Positions 2,991-6,175 of a stretch of 6,267 nucleotides of DNA are shown piece by piece. Each line of letters begins with the position of its first letter. The stretch's first letter is position 1. Source of the stretch: Candidatus Thorarchaeota archaeon SMTZ1-83. Its GTDB lineage: Archaea; Asgardarchaeota; Thorarchaeia; Thorarchaeales; Thorarchaeaceae. Position numbers and translations under genes: made by a program. Below the pieces are notes generated by a model, which was given only the letters and a program-made list of their open reading frames with translations, was not told the origin of the DNA and did not search any database. The stretch spans positions 1 to 6,267 of the forward strand of contig LRSK01000094.1 in NCBI GenBank assembly GCA_001563325.1. Direction: 5' to 3'.

Positions 2991-3012
2991 TAGGATAGGT
3001 TAACCTATCCTA
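2991..3012. promoter_or_regulatory. Perfect 22-bp palindrome, putative operator
   Basis: The half-site TAGGATAGGTT is followed immediately by its exact reverse complement, centred on GTTAAC, with no spacer and no mismatch. It ends 12 bases before the TTG start of the DUF4430 gene and its centre lies about 27 bases downstream of a TATA-like box, where transcription should begin. A dimeric repressor bound here would block initiation. The winged-helix regulator encoded three genes downstream is the obvious candidate ligand. In RNA it could also form a 9-bp hairpin with a four-base loop near the ribosome entry site. Confidence 0.65.
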
Positions 3013-3094: not shown

Positions 3095-4996
3095 CTAGTC
3101 CTTGTACATATGGTACCAGTATATCTCATGCATTGGATTGAAGGCCAGACCGCTGCCTTTCAATAACGAGCTTCTGACCATGAACTGCTCACCCTGATAG
3201 ATGTATATGCTTGGTTGGTCATAGGCCACCTGCTTCTGCATCTTGTTGTAGATTTCCATTCGTTCGGCATCGGTGATCGGCTGATTAGCAGCGAACACCC
3301 ATCCGTCAACAGTCGTGTTGCGATAACCCTTTGCCATCAAAGTGTTGAAGTATGAACACACGAAAGCCGAACTAGAACAGTAGGCGTCAGCGAAATCCGG
3401 TTTCCATCCCATGGTCCACATAGGCACCTTGCTGTTGGACATATGATTCTGAAGGACGGTCCACGAAACAGGAGTGACCCTGATCCTCACTGGCGGTTGT
3501 CTTGGACCATGATATTCCGTAAGGCCAGTACAGTTTGTGTCTTGATGCCTTAGAATCATATCAAGACTATCGGCCATCAATAGCGCAAGCTGTTCTCGAA
3601 CAAGGTTTTCCGTCGGGAAGGAGTATATGTCAATATAGCCCTCCATTGCGTTGATGTCGTGAACGAAGGCCGAGTTCTGCATCGCCAGATTCCACCATGC
3701 AACTGTCTCCTCCACATCATGATGCTCAAGCCAATGTGAGGAGTTGTGCCCAAAGATGCCTTCCGGAATGAAACCCTTTGCCTGTTGAGCCCACCCGCTG
3801 GCCACAACATCAATTGCTGTATCGTAGTCAAAAGCGTATGCGAAGCATTTTCTGAGTTCCCTATGACGAAACGGGCTATTGACCTGTTTTTCAATCCCGC
3901 CCCGAGTTATTTTGAGTGTGTCAGAGTTGAAAGCTATGGTTTGAATCACGTATGTTAGATTGCCCGCATCGACGTCTATGTTCGGGTATCTGGAGCCAAG
4001 TGTGACGTTGTCCCATATCTCATGCGCGTTCGTAATCGGTAGATAGACCATGTCCGCCGCGCCGGTTCTGAGATTCATGAGTCTGCTGTCTACCAATTCG
4101 ACGGTCTTGTAGTAGATGGTCTTGATTGACCCAGCATACTCTGGCGGAGAAAGAGCCACTTCCATTGCGGCGGCTCTCCAGTAGTCCTCAAAGACTACCA
4201 TCTTGATGAATTCATTAGGTTTCCACTCCTCGAGCATATATGCGCCAGTACCACAGGTATGGTTCATCATCCAAGTAACAGTCTCGCCAAAGTCAAACCC
4301 ATAGTGGTCTCTCCAATCGCCTCCTAAGGGGATTGTGTCGTCTATGGCAGTCATGAGGACATAACTAGGACTCATCATGGATGCCACTTGACAGGCCAAT
4401 AATGCGGCGAAGGGTGAGTATGCCTGTTCCAAGTTGAACTGAATGGTGTAGGTGTCCACGACCTCGATGGCGCCTGAGCCTAGTTTCCATTCTTCAAACG
4501 CATTCTGGAACTCGACAGAGCGGGTCCCGTTTGCGTCTGCTTCCCTTACTACAGCCTTTCCGCCTCTGAGCGGCTCCATGATTAGCCGCGCAGGTAGGCC
4601 GTTTAGTTTTGCGATTCTTTCCACGTTCCACTTCACACAACTAGCATTGAACGGGGTTCCATCATGGAATATGACATTCTGACGCAATGTGATATTGTAC
4701 TGCCATCCATCTGCGGAAATCGACGGTGCCCCAACAGCCAATAGAGGGAGATTGGGATTGCTACTATTCGAACCCCAAGGATATGTATACAAGCCTTCGT
4801 ATATGTTGAAAGCAAGAGAGCTGCCGTAGCTTTCGTAGCACGTGTGCGGATCCATGGTACTAGGGTTCCCGTAGGTTTCCATTATGAAGTGGGTCTTGGG
4901 GTCAACCACTAGTTGTGACAGGAACACCGATGTGACACCAATGCCCACAATCAGAATGGCAATGATTATGATGGCATAGATATACTGTCTTTCCAT
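3095..4996 (-). CDS. ABC transporter substrate-binding protein, family 5 (peptide/nickel type)
   Basis: A 633-residue protein of the DppA/OppA/NikA family (SBP_bac_5). Residues 6-28 (YIYAIIIIAILIVGIGVTSVFLS) form an uncleaved signal anchor without lipobox Cys, so the protein is tethered outside the membrane. Family landmarks run in order: STMDPHTC (46-53), FNIYEGLYTY (63-72), the NITLRQNVIFHDGTPFNA strand and loop (101-118), CGTGAYMLEEW (248-258), KTVELVDSRLMNLRTGAADM (297-316), SPFRHRELRKCFAYAFDYDTAI (374-395) and the late MWTMGWKPDFADAY (526-539). It is longer than the usual 500-550 residues. The ATG at 4994-4996 is preferred because it leads straight into the anchor; GGAGGTCA lies 9 bases upstream, and a TTG at 5000-5002 is an alternative. 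The frame remains open to a GTG at 5137, but that would put 47 residues before the anchor. No permease or ATPase gene adjoins it, so the substrate (oligopeptide, dipeptide, nickel or other) cannot be assigned. Confidence 0.92.
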   Translation of the reverse strand: MERQYIYAIIIIAILIVGIGVTSVFLSQLVVDPKTHFIMETYGNPSTMDPHTCYESYGSSLAFNIYEGLYTYPWGSNSSNPNLPLLAVGAPSISADGWQYNITLRQNVIFHDGTPFNASCVKWNVERIAKLNGLPARLIMEPLRGGKAVVREADANGTRSVEFQNAFEEWKLGSGAIEVVDTYTIQFNLEQAYSPFAALLACQVASMMSPSYVLMTAIDDTIPLGGDWRDHYGFDFGETVTWMMNHTCGTGAYMLEEWKPNEFIKMVVFEDYWRAAAMEVALSPPEYAGSIKTIYYKTVELVDSRLMNLRTGAADMVYLPITNAHEIWDNVTLGSRYPNIDVDAGNLTYVIQTIAFNSDTLKITRGGIEKQVNSPFRHRELRKCFAYAFDYDTAIDVVASGWAQQAKGFIPEGIFGHNSSHWLEHHDVEETVAWWNLAMQNSAFVHDINAMEGYIDIYSFPTENLVREQLALLMADSLDMILRHQDTNCTGLTEYHGPRQPPVRIRVTPVSWTVLQNHMSNSKVPMWTMGWKPDFADAYCSSSAFVCSYFNTLMAKGYRNTTVDGWVFAANQPITDAERMEIYNKMQKQVAYDQPSIYIYQGEQFMVRSSLLKGSGLAFNPMHEIYWYHMYKD

Positions 4997-5184: not shown

Positions 5185-5349
5185 GGACACGTGACAAAGT
5201 GAATCGGGGGCATGAGAACTCTGCAAGGGGACCTTGGCCCCCCTATACAGGGGACCCAAAGAACGAACGAACGCGGTTGGACGCAAGTCGCTATCGCAGT
5301 TTGTTACATGGGAGGGGGATGCCCTGCCGATTTCTCACCTCACGTGTCC
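5185..5349. ncRNA. Candidate structured RNA: long interrupted stem enclosing two hairpins
   Basis: No convincing protein is encoded here, but the DNA folds extensively. The outer stem pairs 5185-5194 with 5340-5349 (10 bp, GGACACGTGA), then 5199-5202 with 5335-5338, 5203-5207 with 5327-5331 and 5208-5213 with 5319-5324, 25 pairs in total broken by small internal loops and bulges. Inside are hairpin A (5232-5261; on the minus strand CTTTGG pairs CCAAGG and TCCCCT pairs AGGGGG around a GTAT loop, with one G-G mismatch) and hairpin B (5270-5301; AAC, GCG and GAC pair with GTT, CGC and GTC around a loop reading GCAA on the plus strand). Strand is uncertain: two G-U pairs in hairpin A exist only in minus-strand RNA, while the GNRA loop of hairpin B exists only in plus-strand RNA. 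It may be a free RNA or the leader of either flanking gene. I find no hallmark motif of SRP RNA, RNase P RNA, 5S rRNA or tRNA. Confidence 0.55.
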
Positions 5350-5539
5350 ACGCTGGGAATAAGTCGAATCCCCTGGAGGTTCTCGCGTGCACTGCTGTGA
5401 CATTCCTAATAAACATTCTTTGAAGCATACTCGGCCCGTTTCGAGATGTAACCATTTTGTCGCTTTCGACCGATTAACCGAAGGACCTAATACCAATGTG
5501 GTTCGGAAACCTTCTTGTTCTGATAGGAGACCATAGCTC
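5350..5539. other. Remainder of divergent intergenic region
   Basis: No gene is seen between the structured element and the kinase start. It holds two small perfect hairpins on the kinase side: GTCG/CGAC around CTTT (5459-5470) and GGTT/AACC around CGGA (5500-5511). No strong plus-strand TATA box stands out; TAATAAAC at 5407-5414 is the most AT-rich string. GGAG at 5526-5529 is the likely ribosome-binding site of the kinase gene, 10 bases before its TTG. Confidence 0.4.
5407..5414 (-). promoter_or_regulatory. Possible TATA box for the structured RNA
   Basis: On the minus strand GTTTATTA, preceded by the purine-rich AAAGAAT as a possible BRE, resembles an archaeal TATA element. A start about 25 bases downstream (near 5386) would lie about 36 bases before the outer stem of the candidate RNA. 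The element is AT-rich enough to be read on either strand, so direction is not settled. Confidence 0.35.
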
Positions 5540-6175
5540 TTGGATAGTGAAGAATCTAAGAACCGAGGCAAGCTCTTCGTGCTTGAGGGTGTGGATGGAG
5601 GAGGAAAGACCACAGTCTGTGAAAGTGTTGTAGAGAGGCTTCGATCGGATGGTCACGAAGTCGTCAAGCTCACGGAGCCGACTCGCGAGAGTCATTGGGG
5701 TCAAGAGATTCGAGAGAGATCCGCACTTGGTGAGCTCACCCCAGAGGAAGAGCTTGAGCTCTTCCTGCGTGACCGCGAGTGGCATATCAAGAACAAGATT
5801 CAGCCCGCTCTTAATGCTGCCAAGATCGTGTTGATGGACCGTTACTTCTTTGCAACAGGAGCGTATCAATCAGCAAGCACAGGACTGCATTGGAGAGAGA
5901 TTCTACGCAGGAATCGGGAGGAGATTCACGCACCTGAACCAGACATCGTCTTCATTCTTGATGTTCCCGTAAGGGTTGGGCTTGAGAGAGTTACATCTAG
6001 AAAGCTGACTCTCAATCAGCAGTTCGAGCAGCATGACCGTCTCGTTAAGGTCAGACAAGCATACCTTGAGATGGTGTCTCAAGACAGCGCACGCTTCTCT
6101 GTCATAGATGCCACAAAGAATCTGGAAGAGGTAGTCGACGAGGTATACCAGCAGATCATTGAATCCCTGGATTAA
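5540..6175 (+). CDS. tmk: Thymidylate kinase (dTMP kinase) family protein
   Basis: A 211-residue P-loop kinase of normal length for the dTMP kinase family, which phosphorylates dTMP to dTDP with ATP in the cytoplasm for dTTP synthesis. The P-loop is EGVDGGGKTT (16-25). LTEPTRESHWGQEIRE (44-59) occupies the place of the bacterial TREPGG substrate loop and resembles the EPT-type version found in archaeal enzymes. VLMDRYFFATGAYQ (97-110) holds the DR(Y/H) motif and the AYQ nucleotide-contact segment, with Ala where many enzymes have Ser. PDIVFILDVPVRVGLERV (134-151) is the fourth strand and the start of the lid, with basic residues at 150 and 154. RFSVIDATKNLEEVVDEVYQQI (185-206) is the usual C-terminal strand and helix. 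The TTG at 5540 is used because an in-frame TAG lies one codon further upstream and the P-loop begins soon after. It is divergent from the solute-binding protein gene and probably monocistronic. Confidence 0.85.
   Translation: MDSEESKNRGKLFVLEGVDGGGKTTVCESVVERLRSDGHEVVKLTEPTRESHWGQEIRERSALGELTPEEELELFLRDREWHIKNKIQPALNAAKIVLMDRYFFATGAYQSASTGLHWREILRRNREEIHAPEPDIVFILDVPVRVGLERVTSRKLTLNQQFEQHDRLVKVRQAYLEMVSQDSARFSVIDATKNLEEVVDEVYQQIIESLD

Follow-up and report, generated by a model that had tools for sequence, protein, structure and literature searches.

A conserved structured RNA on the minus strand upstream of tmk in part of the Thorarchaeota

The gap upstream of the thymidylate kinase gene tmk in Candidatus Thorarchaeota archaeon SMTZ1-83 holds an RNA structure which, judged by comparison with related genomes, is real and belongs to a conserved RNA on the minus strand, a new family found in part of the Thorarchaeota, a group related to the ancestors from which complex cells arose. 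The element is conserved, two of its stem helices covary, its wobble pairs assign it to one strand, and it occurs as a single strong copy beside tmk without a match to a known RNA family. Probably, it is part of a single-copy gene for a structured noncoding RNA of about 200 nt; the gene would have its own TATA-type promoter on the minus strand and be transcribed in the direction away from tmk. The window, i.e., the entire stretch of DNA analyzed, comprises 6,267 nucleotides (contig LRSK01000094.1), in which the gap is flanked by two divergent genes:

3095-4996, minus strand: gene for a family 5 solute-binding protein (PF00496, E 1.2e-46), the neighbor co-oriented with the RNA

5540-6175, plus strand: tmk, thymidylate kinase (PF02223, E 5.6e-44; TIGR00041), the divergent neighbor of the RNA

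The other genes of the window encode a DUF4430 protein, a DUF4443 protein, and two proteins without Pfam match. A predicted membrane protein encoded at 1095-1742 on the minus strand, which has no Pfam or NCBIfam match and is clustered with the DUF4430 protein, bears by eye a likeness to the S component of vitamin transporters.

A first-pass annotation had proposed an unrecognised multi-branched structured RNA at this site, a designation that is upheld by conservation, by covariation, and by the lack of an Rfam match at cut-off. Its perfect 10-bp closing stem (GGACACGTGA/TCACGTGTCC) is indeed present and connects 5185-5194 with 5340-5349, and all of the further helices (GTGA/TCAC, ATCGG/CCGAT, and GGGCAT/ATGCCC) were found, leading inward to a junction that bears hairpins. 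How many pairs the inner part forms depends on the model: The mean pair probability of the inner arm across homologues is only about 0.3-0.5. The element is richer in G and C than its surroundings, but to a modest degree (GC 0.576, as against 0.507 and 0.467 in 150 bp on either side). Folding is more stable than in any of 200 shuffles on both the plus strand (z -3.75) and the minus strand (z -4.55): Since an inverted repeat folds on either strand, folding by itself gives no direction. On the minus strand, the proposed RNA is composed of the following parts:

5185-5387, minus strand: proposed RNA gene, supported by the match of covariance model R1, a 176-base identity, and the wobble strand; putative 5' end at about 5387, putative 3' end at or after 5185

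5369-5374, minus strand: AGGGGA of the 5' (P0) region, a possible pseudoknot partner of the core's UCCCCU

5340-5349, minus strand: P1, 5' strand, pairs with 5185-5194

5327-5338, minus strand: P2, 5' strand (GUGA, a 3-nt bulge, AUCGG), covariation

5319-5324, minus strand: P3, 5' strand (GGGCAU), 44/45 cells paired

5288-5299, minus strand: conserved core CUGCGAUAGCGA with two competing pairings (alignments A3-A5)

5267-5291, minus strand: P5 arm (GCGA..UGCG/CGCG..UCGU), pairing mostly kept, mean pair probability about 0.4-0.5

5236-5256, minus strand: P6 hairpin GGUCCCCU-GUAUA-GGGGGGCC, rebuilt with other pairs in genomes G002, G018, G019, and G016

5216-5233, minus strand: most conserved motif GGUCCCCUUGCAGAGUUC, the same or nearly so in 10/10 sequences

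5208-5213, minus strand: P3, 3' strand (AUGCCC), in the covariation count with 5319-5324

5199-5207, minus strand: P2, 3' strand, covariation

5185-5194, minus strand: P1, 3' strand, pairs with 5340-5349

Pairing in the closing stem was evaluated for P2 and P3, whose pairs were taken from an RNAalifold consensus and scored on the MAFFT alignment A4. The count leaves out P1, a helix that has a long form in the window as well as in G001 and G035 but is shorter or unclear in distant members. Covarying pairs in relatives had been suggested as a check on the structure, and in a sample of only nine distinct sequences, some of them close kin whose related rows share changes, 8/14 pairs are changed on both sides (15 cells; reached by 0/500 shuffles), with 6/9 pairs falling in P2 and 2/5 counted pairs in P3. 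Moreover, 96.0% of the cells are paired, which compares with 28-44% in slid versions of the helices and is matched by none of 500 shuffles. Further pair types show no excess (46/500 shuffles as high). The same cells also settle the strand, which the first-pass annotation had left open: Read on the minus strand, P2 and P3 contain 10 G-U, no A-C, and 5 other mismatches, whereas the helices read on the plus strand are 88.8% paired. The presence of G-U without A-C places the RNA on the minus strand; consequently, it is read away from tmk, roughly from 5387 to 5185. One contrary case, an A-C on the minus strand, was seen by eye in P1 of G018.

Internal motifs are conserved more strongly than the stems. 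Within the core, CUGCGA can pair either with UCGU in the P5 arm or with UUGCAG, and both options are nearly invariant. In P5 no pair is changed on both sides, and its near invariance precludes a covariation test. The number of tandem GAAC units in this arm (5261-5272) differs among members, and the P6 region is deleted in G037.

The conservation that the first-pass annotation had asked for in relatives is found in nine carriers among 47 genomes of the class, in each of which the element lies upstream of tmk. The closest tmk (85%) belongs to Candidatus Thorarchaeota bin8 (CP070658.1; G001), and in this nearest relative the element is identical at 165/165 positions, within a 176-base identical run that ends at 5360, against 84.6% identity in the coding DNA of tmk. 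By blastn, 11 of the 47 genomes gave a match at E <= 0.1; those in G013 and G045 are weak and lack model support, and the remaining nine contain the element. Covariance model R1 was built from ten sequences, the window and the nine carriers among them, and matches the window, itself a training sequence, at 5197-5340 on the minus strand with 143.8 bits. Across the 47 class genomes it finds one strong copy in each of the nine (E 2e-36 to 4e-20), and across 227 genomes of the phylum the same nine and no others; as the carriers were training sequences, these searches add reach, not independent support. The 38 non-carrier genomes of the class yielded best E values of about 0.17 to 5, in nine of them, and 35 tmk upstream loci searched with filters off, one of which (L050) covers the tmk side in carrier G014, a best E of 1.2. 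Because a limited number of first-look candidates was scored per genome (69 for the class, 14 for the phylum, 85 for the 38 non-carriers), strongly diverged copies may have escaped detection. Two weak matches of the class search, G016 C1 (E 0.43, inside a coding ORF) and G040 C54 (E 0.75), were dismissed as noise. Links to viruses were not found either: A 26-base pattern had no match, phage records yielded none either, and the one exact match of a 17-base core pattern in viral contigs lies in surroundings that score 9.3 bits with R1 (E 0.37) and was set down to chance. The element is also not coding, as no reading frame is open throughout all nine distinct members.

Where the RNA is absent, the flanking genes are the same and the gap between them is about 270 bp shorter: Measured between BLAST match edges, the distance to tmk is 188-387 bp (median 263) at 28 DUF4430-side loci of non-carriers and 487-665 bp (median 537.5) at 6 loci of carriers. 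A tree of tmk places all 10 carriers (the window counted) in one 22-tip group (support 0.83), where they are intermixed with non-carriers. One origin followed by several losses is the simplest reading of this history; transfer may also have contributed. In G014, RNA and tmk are about 3.3 kb apart, separated by inserted ORFs with HTH and integrase domains (Pfam HTH_32, rve_3). The same insert (L064 53-3006) also encodes two predicted proteins with a common N-terminal stretch.

From the arrangement of promoter-like sequences we infer a separate transcript, whose start and ends as given here are likewise predictions. The corresponding features are:

5406-5413, minus strand: putative TATA-like box TTTATTAG of the RNA gene, preceded by CAAAG at 5418-5422

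5477-5493, plus strand: promoter-like box ACCGAAGGACCTAATAC of tmk, between RNA and tmk

A full TATA-like match is found in 4/10 members, with 11 to 55 of 500 shuffles as good; in two of these four about 11% of shuffles equal it, and the remaining six members are unremarkable. An AT peak (mean 0.80, 10 members) lies about 40 nt before GGGGA on the strand of the RNA. The tmk box, ACCGAAG..CTAATAC, recurs with <=3 mismatches in 34/43 tmk upstream regions, a raw count without chance control, and occurs with or without the RNA; its copies in G018 and G019 are one base short, and in G014 it stays with tmk despite the insert. A plus-strand leader of tmk is ruled out by the strand of the RNA and by this separate box.

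The first-pass annotation had offered a free RNA or a leader of the transporter or kinase gene. A free RNA is the best reading, the kinase leader falls, and a transporter-specific leader is unlikely because the binding-protein gene is missing at this locus in the nearest relative, which has the identical RNA. In that genome, the DUF4430 gene and tmk flank the RNA directly, so the binding-protein gene, which separates the RNA from the DUF4430 cluster in the window, was either gained here or lost there. A more general form of this idea is possible, if doubtful: The element would be a long 5' leader, riboswitch-like or another cis-regulator, of whichever co-oriented gene lies downstream, with a second, gene-proximal promoter, and the regulated gene would ancestrally be the DUF4430/membrane-protein/DUF4443 cluster. 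In line with this, the far-side neighbor is co-oriented with the RNA, which points toward it, in 10/10 carriers, window included, and is a member of the ancestral DUF4430/DUF4443 cluster in 8/10. A terminator scan, made for bacterial types, found none, so that read-through into the downstream gene is possible, and the two pairing options of CUGCGA are switch-like. On the other hand, the RNA is kept where the downstream gene differs: It is the binding-protein gene in the window, DUF4430 in six carriers, DUF4443 in G015 and G014, and a gene for a PAS-domain protein in G018. TATA-like boxes before the downstream genes were noted by eye only.

An operator-like site would also tell against a leader where it lies between RNA and gene. 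A 22-bp palindrome, TAGGATAGGTTAACCTATCCTA, lies ahead of the DUF4430 gene in the window (2991-3012) and looks like the operator of a dimeric regulator. Counted at <=1 mismatch, since matches with 4 mismatches arise in nearly all shuffles, it is located between RNA and gene in 4/9 carriers and upstream of tmk at 18/34 non-carrier loci as well; shorter variants were seen by eye in G016, G015, and G014, and none after the RNA in G018 and G037. The cobalamin riboswitch (RF00174) is an example of a riboswitch leader, and DUF4430 is linked to transcobalamin-like domains. The element resembles such leaders in being compact and branched, with a conserved core and alternative pairings, and often stands upstream of the DUF4430-protein cluster. 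It differs from them in its changing downstream gene, its one strong copy per genome, the operator-like site that follows it in some carriers, and the absence of any Rfam riboswitch match.

That the element is a diverged version of an RNA already known from archaea, such as RNase P RNA, SRP RNA, a guide RNA, or a CRISPR repeat, is very improbable. Size and branched stem are within range, and weak scores were obtained for CRISPR-DR10 (20.5 bits in the window, 24 in L068), the top sub-threshold family, whose cut-off is 39; the Rfam 15 scan that had been proposed as a check returned no family at the gathering score on the element, neither in the window nor in the nine relatives. RNase P RNA shares the long closing stem and the high conservation and, as proposed for the element, has a pseudoknot and is an independent structured RNA gene, but a separate copy (RF00373) exists elsewhere in 9/9 carriers and its model does not match the element. 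The same applies to SRP RNA, a structured RNA that has a gene of its own and measures a few hundred nt: It is found elsewhere in 9/9 carriers (RF01857, 2 above cut-off), again with no match at the element. No consistent complementarity to rRNA emerged from 12 comparisons, each with 60 shuffles, in which the rRNA loci of two genomes were used; the strongest two pairings (3/60 and 4/60 shuffles) are situated in the flanks of the loci and differ between the genomes. As a separate observation, the 2.6 Mb chromosome of G001 yielded an LSU rRNA match of 289 bases only and no SSU rRNA; its rRNA genes may be interrupted or masked, or the MAG may lack them.

Least probable of all is a DNA-level or mobile element (a palindromic, MITE-like insertion) with merely RNA-like inverted repeats, for although the long inverted repeat, the occurrence in 9/47 genomes, and the extra ~270 bp between two genes would suit it, each carrier has a single strong copy, always at the one site, the wobbles favor one strand, which is unexpected for a DNA palindrome, and internal motifs are conserved beyond the stems.

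Regarding the free RNA, its architecture hints at a mode of action. The long closing stem P1-P3 would surround a branched core, whose almost invariant strand GGUCCCCUUGCAGAG would pair with GGGGA of the 5' hairpin to give a compact, pseudoknotted fold. Between the GGGGA segment and the GGUCCCCUUGCAGAGUUC strand, at least 8 contiguous pairs (G-U allowed) are reached in 7/9 members scored, a count without chance control, and the pairing goes down to 5 pairs in G016 and G015. Such a fold would most likely act in trans, either in a complex with protein or in a regulatory role; the invariant core with its possible pseudoknot hints at an RNA that acts in trans and is bound by protein, a function that we infer from the sequences. 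More tentatively, and with somewhat less than even confidence, the RNA could represent an undescribed class of stand-alone pseudoknotted RNAs of one Asgard lineage, serving as the core of a protein-RNA complex or as a ribozyme.

Comparative genomics has brought to light orphan structured RNAs, such as the 104 candidates announced in PMC2864571. Like these, the element was recognised from conservation and covariation; unlike these, it was found only in part of one archaeal class (9/227 phylum genomes searched) and is absent from Rfam 15. At the level of titles and abstract openings, the literature yielded no description of this RNA, and the nearest subject there was Asgard SECIS elements (PMC11227280).

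Since its place and strand are defined and both a consensus and a covariance model exist, the RNA is searchable at once in metatranscriptomes. The box ACCGAAG(C)ATCTAATAC, which precedes tmk across Thorarchaeota, provides a useful promoter model for the lineage. The 176-base identity at 15% tmk divergence suggests constraint on most of the sequence, beyond the stems, as is seen in catalytic RNAs and in those with protein or ligand partners, and close relatives that lack the RNA provide a natural point of comparison in the search for its function.
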